In this document: positions 16,865 through 26,185 of the stretch, in pieces
Layout: the number at the start of each line of letters is the position of its first letter
Position numbering within the stretch: position 1 is the stretch's first letter
DNA from: Cyanobacteria bacterium FACHB-DQ100
Lineage (GTDB): Bacteria > Cyanobacteriota > Cyanobacteriia > Leptolyngbyales > Leptolyngbyaceae
Direction of reading: 5' to 3'
Assembly: GCA_014695195.1 (NCBI GenBank)
Contig: JACJNW010000041.1
Coordinates: forward strand, 124,001-188,000
Length of the DNA: 64,000 nucleotides
Program-made: the position numbers and the translations under genes
Notes under the pieces: generated by a model
Databases searched by the model: none
What the model was told of the DNA's origin: nothing
What the model saw: the letters and a program-made list of their open reading frames with translations, nothing else

Positions 16865-19800
16865 TCATGACCGGATAGCGAGTAGAACCTGACCTGCGGA
16901 AACCGTCTGCCCCTGAACGCAGTAAAGTTCTGTAATGGTTCCTGCTTCGTCTGCGGTCACTGCAATTTCCATTTTCATTGCTTCTAAAATTACTAAGCGA
17001 TCGCCTTCTGCAACTACATCTCCTGGCTTGACCAAGACTTGCCAGACATTTGCAGAAACATGAGCAACGACGGCTTCACTATCTGGAGGCAGAACAATCT
17101 CAGGTGTTTCTTCCTGATCAGCTTGTGCTTCTTCGAGGGTTTCTTGGCGGGTAAATTCTCCGGCCGCTTCCCAGCGATCGCGCTCTGCTTGGAATGCGGC
17201 ACGTTGTTTCCCTCTAAATGCAGCAATCTCATCCGCATTCGATTTGAGAAACTCATTGTATTTTCTCAAACTAAAGGTTTCTTCTTCGATTCTGAGCTTC
17301 AGTTTGCCTTGAATTAAAGCTTCTCGATCGCGTAGCAATTGTTCTGCTGAAACCGGATAGTATCGAATCTGATCAAAGAACCGCAATAACCAAGGCTGTG
17401 TAAAGTCCTCTGTTTGCTTGTAACGGTTCCAAATTGGTACGGTGCGTCCTACAAATTGATAGCCACCCGGACCTTCCATGCCATAGATGCACATATAAGC
17501 CCCACCAATCCCGACTGCATTTTCTGGTGTCCAAGTGCGAGCAGGATTGTACTTCGTGGTGACGAGACGATGCCGTGGATCAAGCGGTGTAGCAACAGGT
17601 GCACCGAGATACACATCTCCTAATCCTAAAACTAGATAGCTTGCATTAAACACAATGTCTTTGACTTGCTCGATGCTATCTAAGCCATTAATGCGGCGAA
17701 TGAATTCGATGTTACTTGGACACCAAGGCGCATCGGGTCGCACCGACTGCATATATTTCTGAATGGCTAACTGGGTCGATTCATCATTCCAAGAAAGTGG
17801 TAGATAAACAATGCGAGTCGGGACTTCGATCGTATCAATGTTCGGAAGTTCTGATTCAGCTTTAGTCAGAATTGCAATCAGTTCTTGAACGGGAAGAGTG
17901 CGACTATCGTAGTGAATTTGAAGCGATCGAATTCCCGGTGTGAGATCAATAATGCCCGGAATATGGTTCTCTTGCAGCCATTGAACTAAGGCATGAACAC
18001 AGAATCGTAAGTTCAGATCCAGTACCAGATCGCCATATTCAACGAGAAGATACTTATCTCCAGCTTGACGATAGGTTACGGGAATTTGATCCGCATCAAA
18101 AATCCGATCCAGAATCGGGGAATGTTCTGTAACTTGCAGCGGTGCAGATTTAGGTAACGGAGTGAGTGTTGCGATCGCGCTATCCTGAGCAAGTTCCCGA
18201 TCGCGGGCTTCCGTCGCGCTTAACCGATAAAACCGAACGCTATCCCCTGGTTTTAACTGTCCAATTTTCCAGAGTTCAGACTGTACGATCGTTGCTGGAC
18301 AAACGAATCCTCCTAAACTGGGTCCATCATGGGCAAGGATGATCGGCATATCACCTGTAAAGTCAACGGTGCCGATCGCATAAGCATTATCGTGAATGTT
18401 CGACGGATGTAATCCTGCTTCACCGCCATCGGTTCGCGCCCATTTCGGTTTCGGTCCGATGAGACGAATTCCTGTTCGAGCGGAGTTGTGGTGGATTGTC
18501 CAATCGGTTGAGAAGAACATATCAATGTCTTCGGGTGTGAAGAAGTCCGGCGCACCATGCGGACCATACATCACTCCGATATTCCATTGAGTCGAGCATT
18601 GTTCTTTGTACTGTTGAACTAACTCAGATGAACAGTGTTGGGCTGAAAGTTCGCTTGTGGGTTTCTCAATGCGTAGAACGTCCCCGGTTCTGAGAGTTCG
18701 TCCTGCATGTCCGCCAAATTTCCCCAGCGTAAAGGTCGATCGACTGCCCAGATACTCTGGCACATCCAAACCATTCTGAACAGCGATGTAAGTTCGATAT
18801 CCATCGCCTTGAATTGCTTTAAGCTTCAGGGTGCTCCCTGCTTTGACTTCAATGGCTGTCCAAAATTCAACAGGTTGCCCGTTCAGAGTTGCCTTCATGG
18901 TTGCGCCTGTAAGCGCGATCGTTGTATCACAGTTAAATCGCAGCGTTGGACCTGTTGCCGTACATTCCAAACCTGCCGCAGATTCAGGGTTCCCCACAAT
19001 TCGGTTTGCCACTCTGAAGGCAAAATGATCCATTGGCCCCGACGGTGGCACACCAATATCCCAATATCCCAACCGTCCTGGATAGTCTTGAACTGTGGTG
19101 TAAGTTCCAGGCTCTAGAATGTCGATCGTTCTTGGCTTGTACTCGAATGAGTTGAGAAACCTTGTGCTGATCGTTCCAGCTTGGAACGTGGGAGCAGCAA
19201 CCACCTGCTTCAGATAGTCTAAGTTCGTTTCGATGCCTGCGATCGTTGATTGCTCTAAGGCAGATTGAAGGGCTGCGATCGCGGAGGTGCGATCGTCACT
19301 ACGAACAATCACTTTTGCCAGAAGCGGATCATAAAACGGTGTTACCTCAGTCCCCGCTTCAATCCAAGCATCAATGCGAACCGAATCCGGAAACTCGACA
19401 GCATTTAACAATCCAGAACTCGGCTGAAAGTTCTTGTTCGCATCTTCTGCATACACTCGCACCTGAATCGAATGACCTTGCGGACGATGCTGATAAGCTT
19501 TGATAAACTCGGTCTCACCTGCTGCCACTTGGATCATCCATTCAACGAGATCAACGTCGCTAACTTCTTCCGTGACACCATGTTCAACCTGCAAGCGAGT
19601 GTTGACTTCTAGAAAATAGAACTGTTGTGCTTCGACATCAAACACATATTCGACAGTTCCCGCCGATCGATAGTTCACTGCTTTCCCAAGTCGAATCGCC
19701 GCGTCAATCAATCCCTGTCTCAACTCATCAGAAACTCCTGGTGCGGGCGTTTCTTCAATCACTTTCTGATTGCGTCGCTGCGTGGAACAGTCCCGCTCAC

Positions 19801-20470
19801 CTAGCGCAATTACATTCCCGGTGCCATCCCCAAAGATCTGAACTTCAATATGTCTTGCAGTTTGAATGTATTTTTCTAGGAAAATTCCGCTTTGCTTGAA
19901 GTTAGATTGACTCAAGCGCTGAACTTTCTCATACGCATCGGATAGTTCTGCTTCACTCATGCACACCTGCATCCCGATGCCACCGCCCCCTGCGGTACTC
20001 TTGAGCATCACCGGATAACCGATCGTACTCGCCACTTCTCGTGCCTGCTCTAAACTCTCAAGCAAAGAACTCCCCGACAGCATCGGCACTTGATTCTGTT
20101 GAGCAATTTCCCGCGCCGTATGCTTCAACCCGAACTGCCGCAACTGCTCTGGAGTCGGACCAATAAACGCAATTCCTGCGGTTTCACAAGCTTCGGCAAA
20201 CTCAGCATTCTCGCTCAAGAAGCCATAACCCGGATGAATCGCATCTGCACCCGTTTGTTTCGCGACTTCGAGAATGCGATCGTACTTCAGATAGCTCTCT
20301 GCCACCGGAGCCGCGCCAATATGAACGGCTTCCGTCGCCATTGAGGCGTGCTGAGCATGAGCATCTGCATCCGAGTAGACTGCAACCGAAGGAATATTTA
20401 AGCGATCGAGCGTCCGAATCACTCGACAAGCAATTTCGCCTCGATTAGCAATCAGAACTTTGTTGAACAT
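16865..20470 (-). CDS. Biotin-dependent urea/guanidine carboxylase
   Basis: A 1201-residue multidomain enzyme. An N-terminal biotin carboxylase (about 1-445, ATP-grasp loop [10 protein letters not shown]) is followed by two carboxyltransferase regions (AHS2 about 455-760; AHS1 about 790-1010) and a C-terminal biotinyl domain with EAMKM (K1166 is the biotin site). This is the bacterial urea carboxylase architecture, without a fused allophanate hydrolase. Family knowledge: carboxylases in guanidine-I riboswitch operons prefer guanidine over urea and work with carboxyguanidine deiminase. The riboswitch upstream of this leftward cluster makes guanidine the likely substrate (inference). I did not align the Asn/Asp position proposed to separate urea from guanidine enzymes. 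It starts seven bases after the small membrane gene. Confidence 0.92.
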
Positions 20471-20714: not shown

Positions 20715-21356
20715 TTAAGCAGCGTCCCAAATAATTAGCCGAATCGGAGTTGGATTGTAAGCATTACAAGGATTGTTGACTTGGGGACAGTTAGAAATCA
20801 AAACCATCAAATCCATTTCTGCTCGCAGTTCAACAATTTTGCCAGCTTCAGAAATGCCGTCAACAATTTCCAAACGTCCATCTTCACTGACTGGAACATT
20901 CATGTAGAAATTGACGTTGCTGACTAAATCACGCTTGTTCATTTCATACTTGCTGAGTTCCAGCAAATAGTTCTCAACACAGGCATGAAGATGTTTCTTG
21001 TGCAGCCCATAGCGCACTGAGTTGCTTTCCATGCTGCAAGCACCGCCGATCGTGTCATGCTTGCCACACTCATCATCGGTAATCGTCGCCATCACATTTC
21101 CTTCGTTGGAGATCAACTGAGTCCCCGTAGTGATGAAGATGTTGCCCTGACGAACCACTGTATCCGGAGCGCTGTAGCGTTCAGAAACATCGTGAGCATT
21201 GTAAAACAAAGTATCAACTGCCTGGTTGCCCATCAAGTCAACAATTCGCAGCGTTTGACCTTTCTTCAAGATTCGTGACCAAGGCTGACGCGCAGGAACA
21301 GTCTCATCGTAGATCGCAGTTGCTGGATCAAGTTTCGTTTGCAGAGTAGAAACCAT
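20715..21356 (-). CDS. DUF1989 protein UAAP2, probable carboxyguanidine deiminase subunit
   Basis: A 213-residue protein of the urea-carboxylase-associated family (DUF1989), starting MVSTLQTKLDPAT at 21356, with GGAG eight bases upstream. A longer open frame exists upstream but overlaps the preceding gene. The family pattern GKHDTIGGACS (about residues 112-122) and the C-terminal NCPQVNNPCNAYNPTP are present, with likely metal-binding Cys and His. Family knowledge: UAAP1/UAAP2 proteins form the two-subunit carboxyguanidine deiminase that converts carboxyguanidine to allophanate and ammonia. It lies 35 bases after UAAP1. Confidence 0.88.
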   Translation of the reverse strand: MVSTLQTKLDPATAIYDETVPARQPWSRILKKGQTLRIVDLMGNQAVDTLFYNAHDVSERYSAPDTVVRQGNIFITTGTQLISNEGNVMATITDDECGKHDTIGGACSMESNSVRYGLHKKHLHACVENYLLELSKYEMNKRDLVSNVNFYMNVPVSEDGRLEIVDGISEAGKIVELRAEMDLMVLISNCPQVNNPCNAYNPTPIRLIIWDAA

Positions 21357-21391: not shown

Positions 21392-22120
21392 CTAAGCTTG
21401 AGCAAACAAAGCATCGGTGTTCTGGAAGGCACGCACCGCTTCCGGGCAAGAAGTCCGACACAAATCATCTGCCGCTGGAGCCGCGGATTTCCAAATTGTG
21501 AGTTGAATGGGTTTCGGCTTGTATTCAGTGCTTGGGTGCATCACATGAGGACAGTTCGACACCACGACCAATACATTCATCTCCGCCCGCAAATCAACGA
21601 AGCTTCCTGGCTTTTCAATGCCCTCGACATAGTTCAAATCACCATTGGGAGCGACTGCAACGCGACTAAAGAGATTCACGTTCGGCATCAAGTCCTTCCG
21701 AGTCAGACCCCACTTGCCGAGCGCTTTGAGGAAGTTGTTGCGCGAGTTGTTGTAATCTCCTTCGCCGTATTTTGCCAAGTTGCTAGCAGCATTGCTACAT
21801 CCGCAGATCAAGTCATGATAGCCGGCTGTATCTTCGGTCATCGAGAACAGCACTCGACCCATATCAGAATAGAGTAGCTTGCCTTTTTGCAGAAACGCAT
21901 TGAACTGGATTTTCGAAGTGTCGGCAACATTCAAGCGTTCGATCGGGCTATCCGCGTTGTAGCAAATCAGCGAAACTCCCTGAGAACCTTCCAAATCGGT
22001 GATGCGGAGCGTATTTCCACGCTTAATTACAAAATGCCAGTACGCGCCACCGGGGAGCTTTTCATCGAGCAAAATCAGGCTGGGATCGATTTGTGAAGTC
22101 TTAGCAATGGTCTGCACCAT
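21392..22120 (-). CDS. DUF1989 protein UAAP1, probable carboxyguanidine deiminase subunit
   Basis: A 242-residue paralogue of the following gene; both share the GYHDLICGCSN/GKHDTIGGACS block and the C-terminal NCPHVMHPSTEYKPKP region. The ATG at 22118-22120 has GGAG eight bases upstream. It is the first gene of the leftward guanidine transcript, directly downstream of a guanidine-I riboswitch and its terminator. Which of the two proteins corresponds to CgdA or CgdB in the characterised Pseudomonas enzyme I cannot say. The older annotation, urea amidolyase-associated protein, comes from operon context with urea carboxylase. Confidence 0.9.
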   Translation of the reverse strand: MVQTIAKTSQIDPSLILLDEKLPGGAYWHFVIKRGNTLRITDLEGSQGVSLICYNADSPIERLNVADTSKIQFNAFLQKGKLLYSDMGRVLFSMTEDTAGYHDLICGCSNAASNLAKYGEGDYNNSRNNFLKALGKWGLTRKDLMPNVNLFSRVAVAPNGDLNYVEGIEKPGSFVDLRAEMNVLVVVSNCPHVMHPSTEYKPKPIQLTIWKSAAPAADDLCRTSCPEAVRAFQNTDALFAQA

Positions 22121-22169
22121 AAAAATTCTCCAGAAAATGAACGGTTAAGTGCGATCGACCCAAAACGGC

Positions 22170-22220
22170 AAAGCCCAGGAGATACCAAGACAGGAATCTG
22201 TATGGTTCTCCCGGGCTTTT
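22170..22220 (-). terminator. Riboswitch-linked terminator of the leftward guanidine operon
   Basis: On the minus strand AAAAGCCCGGGAGAACC, the 3' part of the aptamer, can pair with GGTATCTCCTGGGCTTT downstream, so ligand-stabilised aptamer and terminator are mutually exclusive. The downstream run is T-rich but interrupted (CTTTGCCGTTTT). This fits an ON-switch in which guanidine prevents termination. Confidence 0.75.
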
Positions 22221-22297
22221 GTCCCGCCGTGTGACCGAATGATCGTTTCGGCTGCTTCTCTTGGACCAGGCATTCAGTGAACCGGAACCCTAGAAGC
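22204..22297 (-). promoter_or_regulatory. Guanidine-I (ykkC class) riboswitch, leftward
   Basis: Read on the minus strand the segment contains, in order, the conserved ykkC blocks CTAGGGTTCCG (complement of 22283-22293), CTGGTCCAAGAG, ACACGGCGGG (complement of 22223-22232) and AAAAGCCCGGGAG. Order and spacing fit the guanidine-I aptamer, which binds free guanidinium. It controls UAAP1, UAAP2, the small membrane protein and the carboxylase. Confidence 0.93.
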
Positions 22298-22355
22298 TTA
22301 CTCCTATTCAATTTGCGTTTGAGTTCTGAATCGTTAAGTTGCTTAACTCTCCGTT

Positions 22356-22383
22356 AGTCTATCACTTCATATTAAGAAGTCAA
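22356..22383 (-). promoter_or_regulatory. Candidate sigma70 promoter for the leftward guanidine operon
   Basis: On the minus strand TTGACT (complement of 22378-22383), a 16-base spacer and TAGACT (complement of 22356-22361) predict a start near 22349, about 50 bases before the riboswitch. The -35 is a 5/6 match and the -10 a 4/6 match. Confidence 0.5.
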
Positions 22384-22470
22384 GCGATCGCACTCAATTT
22401 TTTGATTTATGAATTCTCGTTCTTTGGAAAGTTGTGAAAGCTTAAAAAGTTTCTGTCTAAATCATAAATA

Positions 22471-22512
22471 GTAATGATTGATACAAACTGCTTGTAAATC
22501 AGTTGTTACTGT
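22471..22512 (+). promoter_or_regulatory. NtcA-activated promoter of the guanidine transport operon
   Basis: GTA (22471-22473), eight bases, TAC (22482-22484), then 22 bases and TACTGT (22507-22512), a TAN3T -10 box. This is the textbook class-II NtcA promoter, with the box centred about 41.5 bases upstream of a predicted start at 22519. It implies activation under nitrogen limitation. The GTAN8TAC box is palindromic, but I see no correctly spaced -10 for the opposite direction. Confidence 0.75.
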
Positions 22513-22570
22513 AAAGTCGAACCAATCTACTCACAGTAGTGTGCGATTGCAGTTCTAGTATTTAATTTGC

Positions 22571-22664
22571 TTCTAGGGTTCCGATTCCTTGAATGTCTGG
22601 TCCGAGAGAAGCAGGCTAACCAAAAAATGTTGGCTACACGGCGGGAGAAAAGCCCGGGAGGAAC
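22571..22664 (+). promoter_or_regulatory. Guanidine-I (ykkC class) riboswitch, rightward
   Basis: CTAGGGTTCCG (22573-22583), GTCTGGTCCGAGAG (22595-22608), ACACGGCGGG (22636-22645) and AAAAGCCCGGGAG (22648-22660) are the conserved guanidine-I blocks in the right order. It precedes the ABC transporter genes and is a near copy of the leftward switch in the same intergenic region. Confidence 0.95.
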
Positions 22665-22709
22665 TTTCAGTCGATGCAAAAGACTGTGAGGTTTCTTCTG
22701 GGCTTTTCT
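22651..22709 (+). terminator. Riboswitch-linked terminator of the guanidine transport operon
   Basis: AGCCCGGGAGGAAC (22651-22664), the 3' side of the aptamer, can pair with GTTTCTTCTGGGCT (22691-22704), which is followed by TTTTCT. Aptamer and terminator compete for the same bases, as expected for transcriptional control in which guanidine turns the genes on. Confidence 0.85.
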
Positions 22710-22780
22710 ATTAGAAACTCGATCGTTTGTCGCTAACCTTGACCGCTCTATTTCCCAGAACCTTGACCCAGGATTTGCTT

Positions 22781-23842
22781 ATGAAAGCGAAAACGATCGT
22801 GACTTCCTGTCTGCTGTTTTTAATGGCTGTATTTCTAGCAGTTGGTTGCACAAATCCTGCCACTTATATTCGGACGACGACAGAAACAGAAGCAGTTGCA
22901 GCCACGACAACCGCTAACACGATTCGACTCGGCTTTAGCGCTTGGCCCGGTTGGTTTCCCTGGGAAGTTGCACAGCAACAAGGCATCTTTAAAACTAAAT
23001 CTGCTAATGCTGATCTCAAGTGGTTTGATGGCTATTTGGAATCGATTAGCACGCTCACAGCAGGACAAATTGATGCCAATAGTCAAACGCTCGGAGATAC
23101 GGTGAATTCGATCGCGGGTGGTGCAGATCAAGTCATTGTGTTGGTGAACGATAATTCAACCGGAAACGACAAAGTTATTGTTCGAGAAGGCATCAACACG
23201 GTTGCAGATCTCAAAGGAAAAAGAGTTGCAGCCGAAGAAGGAACGGTCGATCATTTCTTGTTGTTATTGGGCTTGAGAAAAGCGGGACTTTCGCCTCAAG
23301 ATATTCAATTCGTGCCACTTGAAACTGGGAAAGCTGCCGCCGCATTTGTTGGCGGACAAGTCGATGCCTGTGCCGTTTTCGCACCCTTTACGACTCAAGC
23401 ATTGAAGCGCTCAAACAGCAAAGAACTCTTCAGCTCCAAAGATTTTCCGGGCGCAATTTCGGATCACTTAGTTGTCAATCGCAAGTTTCTGTATGAGCAT
23501 CCGGATCAAGTGCAAGCTTTAGTGGATACTTGGTTTTCAACGCTCGACTACATCAAAAATAATCAAGCGAAAGCTTATGAAATTATGGCGAAACGGGCGG
23601 GAGTGTCGATCGACGAATACAAAGAATACGCCGATGGCACTCGTTTATTTACGCTCGAAGAGAACCTGAAAGCCTTTCAGCCTGGAAACGACATGACTTC
23701 GCTGCTTCATGCAGCCAATGAAATGAGCAAATTCCTAATGGATGTTGGACTGGCGAAAAATAAACCAAACACGATGCTATTGTTTGACGATCGCTTTGTT
23801 AAAGCCCACGCTCAGAACCAAAAAGTAGCCAAAGCAGCTTAA
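22781..23842 (+). CDS. ABC transporter substrate-binding lipoprotein (probable guanidine uptake)
   Basis: A 353-residue lipoprotein starting MKAKTIVTSCLLFLMAVFL, with the lipobox LAVGC at about residues 19-23. AGGA precedes the ATG with normal spacing. The mature part resembles the SsuA/TauA/NMT1 binding-protein group (GFSAWPGWFPWEVAQQQGIF, then DLKGKRVAAEEGT), historically called nitrate/sulfonate/taurine-binding. Downstream of a guanidine-I riboswitch this family is associated with guanidine import; ligand is inference from that context. Followed four bases after its stop by the permease gene. Confidence 0.88.
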   Translation: MKAKTIVTSCLLFLMAVFLAVGCTNPATYIRTTTETEAVAATTTANTIRLGFSAWPGWFPWEVAQQQGIFKTKSANADLKWFDGYLESISTLTAGQIDANSQTLGDTVNSIAGGADQVIVLVNDNSTGNDKVIVREGINTVADLKGKRVAAEEGTVDHFLLLLGLRKAGLSPQDIQFVPLETGKAAAAFVGGQVDACAVFAPFTTQALKRSNSKELFSSKDFPGAISDHLVVNRKFLYEHPDQVQALVDTWFSTLDYIKNNQAKAYEIMAKRAGVSIDEYKEYADGTRLFTLEENLKAFQPGNDMTSLLHAANEMSKFLMDVGLAKNKPNTMLLFDDRFVKAHAQNQKVAKAA

Positions 23843-23845
23843 GTT

Positions 23846-24694
23846 ATGCAAAACTCGACTCCCCGATCGATTCAGTCTCTGATGAAGCCTAAACCGATGA
23901 AGCCGACGGTGTTTTGGCGTTTAGCAGAAGACATTCCGAAACCTTTGTATACGACTTTAACCGTTCTGTCGATCGCGCTTCCGCTCTTGCTCTGGTGGGC
24001 AGTCACAACTTTCGGCAACATTGATTCAAAGTTTCTCCCTTCACCTGCAAAAGTGCTAGAGGCATTCGGGCGACTGTGGAGCACTCGTGAACTGCTGAAA
24101 GATACCGTTGCAAGCTTGTGGCGGGTCGGAGTAGGGTTTCTATTTGCGGCATTGTTATCTATCCCGGTTGGCATACTGATGGGTAGCTTTCCAAGCATTC
24201 GAGCTTTGTTGGAACCCTTGTTCGGATTAGTGCGCTACATGCCAGCACCCGCATTTATCCCACTGTTGATTCTCTATCAGGGAGTGGATGAAGAGCCAAA
24301 GATTACACTAATTTTCCTTGGAACGTTCTTCTTTAACTCCCTAATGGTGATGGACACCGTGAAGTTTGTGCCGAAGGATTTGATCGAAGCAACCTATATG
24401 CTCGGTGGCAATCGTCGAGCCGCATTAACTCAAGTCATTTTGCCGCACGTCCTTCCGGGAATTTTGGATGCTTGTCGGATTAACTTAGCAGCAGCTTGGC
24501 AGCTTGTCATTGTGTCTGAATTGATTGCAGCGACAGAAGGTTTAGGACGGCGAATTAGTGTAGCAGGACGCTTTCTCAGAACCGATGAAATTTTTGCTGG
24601 ACTAATTGTGATTGGAGTCATTGGTCTAACATTTGACTTACTGTTTCAGTATCTGTTGCGTGTCACTTGCAAATGGGCAAGCCAAAAACGATAA
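23846..24694 (+). CDS. ABC transporter permease (probable guanidine uptake)
   Basis: A 282-residue inner-membrane protein with about six helices and the BPD_transp_1 EAA-like loop LIEATYMLGGNRRAALTQV (about residues 179-197). It resembles the SsuC/TauC permease group and would pair with the neighbouring binding protein and ATPase. It starts three bases after the binding-protein stop, in the same riboswitch-controlled transcript. Confidence 0.92.
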   Translation: MQNSTPRSIQSLMKPKPMKPTVFWRLAEDIPKPLYTTLTVLSIALPLLLWWAVTTFGNIDSKFLPSPAKVLEAFGRLWSTRELLKDTVASLWRVGVGFLFAALLSIPVGILMGSFPSIRALLEPLFGLVRYMPAPAFIPLLILYQGVDEEPKITLIFLGTFFFNSLMVMDTVKFVPKDLIEATYMLGGNRRAALTQVILPHVLPGILDACRINLAAAWQLVIVSELIAATEGLGRRISVAGRFLRTDEIFAGLIVIGVIGLTFDLLFQYLLRVTCKWASQKR

Positions 24695-24717: not shown

Positions 24718-25488
24718 ATGTTTTTGCAAATTAACAATCTCAGCAAGCATTTTTCCACCAGCAATGGAACGCTCGTTGTTCTGAAAGATATTGATATCGA
24801 GATCGAGCAAGGCGAATTTGTTTGCGCGGTCGGTGCATCGGGGTCAGGTAAATCAACACTGCTGCGTCAGATTGCAGGATTGGATACACCGACGATCGGC
24901 GAAGTGCGGATCGAAGGCAAAAGAGTTACAGGGCCAGGACCCGATCGCGGCATGGTTTTCCAGCATTACACGCTGTATCCGTGGATGACGGTGCAAGAAA
25001 ATGCAGAGTTTGGTTTAAAGCTGCAAGGCGTGCCGAAAAAAGATCGTCGAGAGCAAGCTGGCTACTATCTGAATGTTGTGGGCCTATCACAGTTTGGTAA
25101 GGCGTTGCCGAAAGAGCTATCCGGTGGGATGAAGCAGCGAGTTGCGATCGCTCGTGCTCTTGCTTCGGAACCGAAAATTCTGCTGATGGATGAACCGTTT
25201 GGAGCTTTGGACATCCATACCAAAGAGTCGATGCACGACTTTATGATTGATCTATGGCAGCGCACAGGGATTACAATCTTTATGATTACTCACGATGTCG
25301 AAGAAGCAGTGTTTCTCTCGAACCGAATTTTTGCTCTGAGTGCGCGTCCGGGAACGGTTCGCAAGGTGATGAACATTAATTTACCAGAACGAGCAGCTTC
25401 GGTGAAGCGACATTCTACGTTTCACGACTATCGAGATGAACTTATGGATTTGTTACGCAAGCATGGACAAGAAGCGATCGCAGCCTGA
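24718..25488 (+). CDS. ABC transporter ATP-binding protein (probable guanidine uptake)
   Basis: A 256-residue ATPase from the ATG at 24718, which has GGAG upstream; an earlier in-frame ATG lies inside the permease gene and is not used. Walker A is GASGSGKST, the signature [15 protein letters not shown], and Walker B LLMDEPFGALD. It belongs to the SsuB/TauB group and energises the transporter. The last 26 bases overlap the start of the biotin ligase gene in another frame. Confidence 0.93.
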   Translation: MFLQINNLSKHFSTSNGTLVVLKDIDIEIEQGEFVCAVGASGSGKSTLLRQIAGLDTPTIGEVRIEGKRVTGPGPDRGMVFQHYTLYPWMTVQENAEFGLKLQGVPKKDRREQAGYYLNVVGLSQFGKALPKELSGGMKQRVAIARALASEPKILLMDEPFGALDIHTKESMHDFMIDLWQRTGITIFMITHDVEEAVFLSNRIFALSARPGTVRKVMNINLPERAASVKRHSTFHDYRDELMDLLRKHGQEAIAA

Positions 25489-26185
25489 CAAACAATGGTT
25501 GATTGAGCTAGAAAGCTGCGAAAGTACCAATTCGTGGACACTAGATCAGCTTTCTCAATTGCAGCACGGAGATGTGGTGTTTACCCGCAATCAGACCGCA
25601 GGACGGGGACAGTTTGATCGTGCTTGGGTGTCTTCGTCGGGTGCATTAACTGCGAGTTTTGTGCTGAATTTGCCGATCGCGCAACTCGCGGGGTTGAGTT
25701 TGATTGCGGGACTTGCGACAATTGATGCGATCGAAACTTTGTTGCCGAATTTGCACGGTACGCTGGGTTTGAAGTGGACAAATGACGTATTTGCAGAAGA
25801 TCGAAAGCTTGCGGGTGTGCTGTGTGAATCGCGGATTCAAGCAGAGCAAGCTCAGGTTGTTGTAGGAATTGGAATTAATTGTGAGGCTGTGCCTGTGGAT
25901 GGGGCAATTAGCTTACAAGAAATTTCAGCGTATGTGCCAGATTTGCAAGCACTGTTAGAGCAATTACGATATTGTTTGCTGCAACTATGCAATCGCTCTC
26001 TTGTGGAATTACTGCCGGAGATTCAAGCGCGAGACATTCTACAGAGAAAAACGATCGTGTTCGATGCTGTAAATGAGCAATTGACTGGAGTAGGTGCTGG
26101 GATTGATGAGCAAGGGCGATTGTTAATTCAACTTGCTGAGGGGATTAGGGCTTATCGATCGGGGCGGGTTTTGTCGATCGATTAA
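25463..26185 (+). CDS. birA: Biotin-[acetyl-CoA-carboxylase] ligase (BirA catalytic type)
   Basis: A 240-residue ligase without the N-terminal DNA-binding domain of E. coli BirA. The biotin-adenylate loop GRGQFDRAW (about residues 48-56) and LKWTNDVFAEDRKLAGVL (Lys in the KWxND motif) are present. It activates biotin with ATP and attaches it to the target lysine of carboxyl carrier domains. The ATG at 25463 lies inside the ATPase gene, so translation is probably coupled. Its place in the guanidine operon suggests it keeps the biotin-dependent carboxylase modified when the pathway is induced, while also serving acetyl-CoA carboxylase (inference). Confidence 0.9.
   Translation: MDKKRSQPDKQWLIELESCESTNSWTLDQLSQLQHGDVVFTRNQTAGRGQFDRAWVSSSGALTASFVLNLPIAQLAGLSLIAGLATIDAIETLLPNLHGTLGLKWTNDVFAEDRKLAGVLCESRIQAEQAQVVVGIGINCEAVPVDGAISLQEISAYVPDLQALLEQLRYCLLQLCNRSLVELLPEIQARDILQRKTIVFDAVNEQLTGVGAGIDEQGRLLIQLAEGIRAYRSGRVLSID

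Follow-up and report, generated by a model that had tools for sequence, protein, structure and literature searches.

Canonical NtcA class-II promoters, among them those of glnA, urtA, nirA and ntcB, have a GTAN8TAC box centred near -41.5 and a -10 element of the form TAN3T (PMC3898017). Guanidine-I (ykkC) riboswitches are likewise well described from carboxylase, UAAP and transporter genes, where the RF00442 aptamer is joined to a terminator-type platform. The nearest precedent for a combination of NtcA with a nitrogen-metabolite riboswitch on one transcript is gifB of Synechocystis, which joins repression by NtcA to a glutamine riboswitch (PMC6316151), whereas activation by NtcA and guanidine as ligand would be expected at the importer operon described here. 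A Guanidine-I riboswitch in front of an importer of the same kind is found in the Synechocystis gdmH-ghaAB-importer operon sll1077-1082 (PMC10094980, PMC8390497), and excess ammonium represses this guanidinase/importer operon in a manner found to depend on Slr1821 (PMC10094980). The repression need not be a direct effect of NtcA; it can nevertheless be read as independent support for nitrogen control, a reading that does not require NtcA to act directly. In the literature examined, Synechocystis NtcA regulon and GdmH studies aside, no NtcA site is reported for sll1077-1082 and no NtcA boxes are reported before guanidine riboswitches, nor does the literature searched mention a nitrogen-regulated promoter before Guanidine-I riboswitches. 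NtcA class-II promoters and Guanidine-I riboswitches are thus each known, and their pairing is without report in the literature searched.

Such a pairing is suggested by a locus of Cyanobacteria bacterium FACHB-DQ100, for which we analyzed a window of 64,000 nt (GCA_014695195.1, JACJNW010000041.1, positions 124,001-188,000, forward strand) from a genome of 5.5 Mb that is labelled G000 in comparisons. Whereas Synechocystis sll1077-1082 is a single operon with a guanidinase, this genome has a carboxylase and divergent operons, each with its own Guanidine-I aptamer scoring above the RF00442 gathering score of 63 (Table 1). The importer leader resembles the known class-II promoters in its box and -10 element and differs from them in adding a guanidine riboswitch, which would act as a second gate.

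Table 1. Features of the divergent importer/carboxylase locus, in window coordinates.
Feature	Position	Strand	Evidence or remark
Urea/guanidine carboxylase	16865..20470	-	TIGR02712, 1922 bits
UAAP2, putative carboxyguanidine deiminase subunit	20715..21356	-	TIGR03424 above cut-off
UAAP1, putative carboxyguanidine deiminase subunit	21392..22120	-	TIGR03425 above cut-off
Terminator-like hairpin, leftward riboswitch	22168..22218 (approximate ends)	-	Predicted folds
Guanidine-I aptamer, divergent carboxylase operon	22206..22304	-	Rfam RF00442, 76.6 bits
Sigma-70-like promoter TTGACT-N16-TAGACT, leftward operon	22356..22383	-	Promoter scan
NtcA-type box GTAATGATTGATAC, palindromic GTAN8TAC	22471..22484	+	Exact match
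-10 element TACTGT (TANNNT), 22 nt 3' of box	22507..22512	+	Exact; invariant in three relatives
Predicted transcription start	22519	+	Box centre 22477.5 + 41.5, class-II arithmetic (PMC3898017)
Guanidine-I aptamer, importer operon	22562..22662	+	Rfam RF00442, 89.5 bits
Terminator-like hairpin, importer riboswitch	22646..22709	+	Fold -40.6 kcal/mol, z -6.8
ABC importer substrate-binding protein	22781..23842	+	TIGR01728 SsuA_fam above cut-off
ABC permease	23846..24694	+	PF00528; TauC/SsuC-like
ABC ATPase (start codon assumed)	24718..25488	+	PF00005; nitrate/taurine-type ATPase

The rightward operon places genes of an SsuA/Tau-type importer, assigned by family membership, downstream of a Guanidine-I riboswitch, and the riboswitch together with the neighbouring genes makes guanidine the probable transported substrate. 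In the predicted fold, a 64-nt hairpin sequesters the conserved 3' aptamer strand GCCCGGGAG by pairing it with downstream RNA, and 118 of 121 relatives, 103 of them with a T-rich 3' end, are predicted to have the same alternative between aptamer and terminator pairing. This is the layout expected of a transcription-attenuation ON switch, and the competition of the long hairpin with the aptamer points to guanidine-dependent read-through in agreement with the known ykkC/Guanidine-I mechanism. An open reading frame at 25436-26185 (+) that by eye resembles a biotin-protein ligase overlaps the 3' end of the importer ATPase gene, and its product could serve the biotin-dependent carboxylase; homologs occur in just 3 of 80 related loci, which rules it out as a conserved member of the importer operon. 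Away from the guanidine genes, the allophanate hydrolase of the source genome (G000:C28:248346-250267) appears as a pair of neighbouring, separate reading frames of 461 and 134 aa that score below the family cut-off.

The initial annotation had read the region upstream of the rightward riboswitch as GTA-N8-TAC, 22 bases and TACTGT with class-II NtcA architecture and spacing, and the pattern is indeed exact on the forward strand, with box halves at 22471-22473 and 22482-22484 and a 22-nt interval (22485-22506) up to the -10 element. The spacing is also the expected one, as the glnA promoter of the source genome has the same 22 nt. Applying the class-II distance of -41.5 to the box centre predicts a transcription start 43 nt upstream of the Guanidine-I aptamer. 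At the position 17 nt before the rightward -10, where a -35 hexamer would be expected, the sequence reads CAAACT, so that the promoter lacks a -35 hexamer, and a sigma-70 scan of the forward strand from 22150 to 22800 found no promoter.

The leftward carboxylase operon is organized differently. The hexamers of its sigma-70-like promoter do not vary between G000 and its near relatives G020 and G018, TG precedes its -10, and a search upstream of this operon in the window and in 13 divergent importer/carboxylase loci revealed no class-II NtcA site belonging to it. When the class-II arrangement was defined as at most one core mismatch, N22 and TANNNT, it was aimed at the importer in 12 and at the carboxylase in none of these 13 loci, which include Nostoc, Amazonocrinis, Pseudanabaena and Alkalinema and, with close relatives present, amount to about five independent lineages. 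Because the leftward operon has this different, sigma-70-like promoter, the nitrogen gate would be confined to the rightward import operon; carboxylase transcription is probably NtcA-independent and gated by guanidine alone, which would assign the AND gate to import. The box might instead be a shared operator through which NtcA would coordinate both operons, activating the importer from -41.5 and affecting the leftward carboxylase promoter at a distance of about -128. Its palindromic form would allow this, as would the lack of any other box between the divergent operons of G000, G020 and G018. Exact boxes belonging to the carboxylase-side operon itself are present in 10 family members elsewhere (shared boxes excluded), which argues that nitrogen control of the carboxylase operon exists in other genomes. 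At the present locus, however, we regard a shared operator as unlikely, given the conserved sigma-70-like promoter of the leftward operon, the orientation of the class-II arrangement across the divergent loci, and a distance of -128 that is long for CRP-type activation.

The protein needed for activation of the importer is encoded in the source genome, whose canonical NtcA scores 388.7 bits (above cut-off), aligns end to end with the solved NtcA chains 8h3v, 3la2 and 2xgx, and is identical to solved NtcA in its recognition-helix residues. The glnA promoter of this genome reads GTATCTTATGATAC-N22-TACCAT, the same pattern as the importer promoter, and serves with its counterparts as a positive control: 21 of 30 glnA upstream regions in the family have box and -10, and in every case the canonical one has the N22 spacing, so that the importer promoter resembles family glnA promoters in its 22-nt interval. 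It is conceivable that NtcA is a repressor or a minor modulator here and that the riboswitch carries nearly all control, since NtcA also represses, as at the gifA/gifB sites at -30.5 and -7.5 (PMC6316151). Such repressing sites overlap core promoter elements, whereas the importer site lies at the activating position of -41.5 and lacks a -35, like glnA, and we consider a repressing or minor role improbable.

Neither the box nor the full pattern is informative by its frequency. GTAN8TAC occurs three times within the window against 3.21 expected from shuffles, and the box alone was dismissed as evidence on this account. The pattern GTAN8TAC-N20-24-TANNNT has 70 matches on both strands of the 5.5-Mb genome. 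N22 accounts for 18 matches including the importer promoter, and the glnA promoter is among the remaining 17. The genome-wide count was set aside as well because it is not enriched over the reversed control (70 vs 204). Without genome-wide enrichment, the case must rest on context and conservation. With respect to context, the 220 nt preceding each riboswitch of the window (2 x 220 nt for the pair) should by chance contain 0.0007 matches at N22 and 0.0028 at N20-24. As for conservation, G020 and G018 retain the box core, GATACAAAC and TACTGTAA while the surrounding sequence differs, and the G018 box departs from that of the source genome solely inside N8. The promoter is retained upstream of the same gene in G020, G018 and G009 and in Nostoc, Amazonocrinis and Aphanocapsa loci, and the importer promoter pattern is missing in several other genera.

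Guanidine-I riboswitches are present in 34 of 42 genomes of the family, and the 220 nt upstream of each were surveyed for the box, with shuffles giving 0.2-0.7 per group. An exact box precedes importer riboswitches in 4 of 16 cases, all four with a -10 at N22, the other 12 lacking an exact box; carboxylase-type riboswitches in 13 of 21, three of these boxes being common to a divergent importer; and guanidinase-type riboswitches in 5 of 11. No exact box was found for riboswitches of a second transporter type (0/12, with G002b placed in this group without a homology match). Among cobalamin riboswitches of the same genomes, used as a control, 1 of 30 has an exact box and none of the 30 has a box with -10.

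Two further arrangements were observed among the relatives. The second transporter behind a Guanidine-I riboswitch (G017:C1:4416096-4417412, G021:C510:3115-4425, G022:C224:10990-12303, G030:C22:50877-52193 and others) is accompanied within a few kb by a glutamine-synthetase-like gene. In Microcoleus and its relatives (L228, L230-L232, L236-L238 and L240), importer and UAAP genes are co-stranded behind one riboswitch, upstream of which stands the one-mismatch box GTAACATTTTACAC, or a sequence similar to it, followed by N22 and TACCGT or TAGGGT.

The association extends well beyond the family. The riboswitch was found in 192 of 388 genomes of the class, and sixty regions carrying 61 riboswitches were sampled across 27 families besides that of the window. 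Exact GTAN8TAC lies upstream of 53 of the 118 cyanobacterial Guanidine-I riboswitches examined (shuffles: mean 2.9, maximum 10), and seven control palindromes or spacings were found 2 to 7 times each in the same upstream regions. TANNNT follows at exactly 22 nt in 16 of 55 boxes (~30%), compared with a mean of 1.3 at 29 other spacings (P ~1e-12). An exact box is present in 20 of the 27 sampled families beyond that of the window and is absent (0/8) in family f2, which has small genomes and a guanidinase behind the Guanidine-I riboswitch, so the pairing is widespread and not universal. A coincidence of GTAN8TAC and TANNNT, with the operon transcribed from another promoter, would fit a box at chance frequency in the window and 70 genome-wide matches, most of them presumably non-functional, but the expectation of 0.0007 at this location, the conserved core in relatives, the enrichment of the box across the class, the peak at one spacing and the bias in orientation make it highly improbable.

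All sequence tests that were run, namely those of the box, the N22 spacing, the -10, the NtcA gene, the enrichment and the orientation, support the class-II NtcA reading proposed in the initial annotation. We assign a probability of about 0.83 to the interpretation that 22471-22512 is a class-II NtcA promoter feeding a guanidine-gated importer operon, such that import would need both nitrogen shortage and guanidine. From these sequence features we infer NtcA binding, the start site, the nitrogen and ligand responses, the transported substrate and the AND logic, which would combine as follows. When nitrogen is limiting, NtcA together with 2-oxoglutarate (and PipX) would bind at -41.5 and stand in for the missing -35 contact, transcription would begin near the predicted start, and the nascent RNA would reach the Guanidine-I aptamer. 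In the absence of guanidine, the 3' aptamer strand would pair downstream to form the terminator; in its presence, the aptamer would retain this strand and the polymerase would proceed into the importer genes, import thereby requiring the two signals together. Transcription of the divergent carboxylase operon would start from its sigma-70-like promoter, with the guanidine riboswitch of that operon as the main gate.

In physiological terms, guanidine may be a nutrient or a toxin. A nitrogen-starvation promoter before guanidine importers and guanidinases in 20 of 27 sampled families argues that guanidine is treated as a nitrogen source by many cyanobacteria. We consider it an even bet that cyanobacteria as a group possess a two-layer guanidine regulon, in which NtcA would start transcription under nitrogen shortage and the riboswitch would release it in the presence of guanidine, and that at divergent loci only import would be nitrogen-gated while degradation would stay NtcA-independent for constant detoxification. 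The control of the importer would also represent a compact natural two-input gate, and the juxtaposition of a nitrogen-gated importer with a carboxylase under a housekeeping promoter would offer a direct test of the nutrient and detoxification roles of guanidine.
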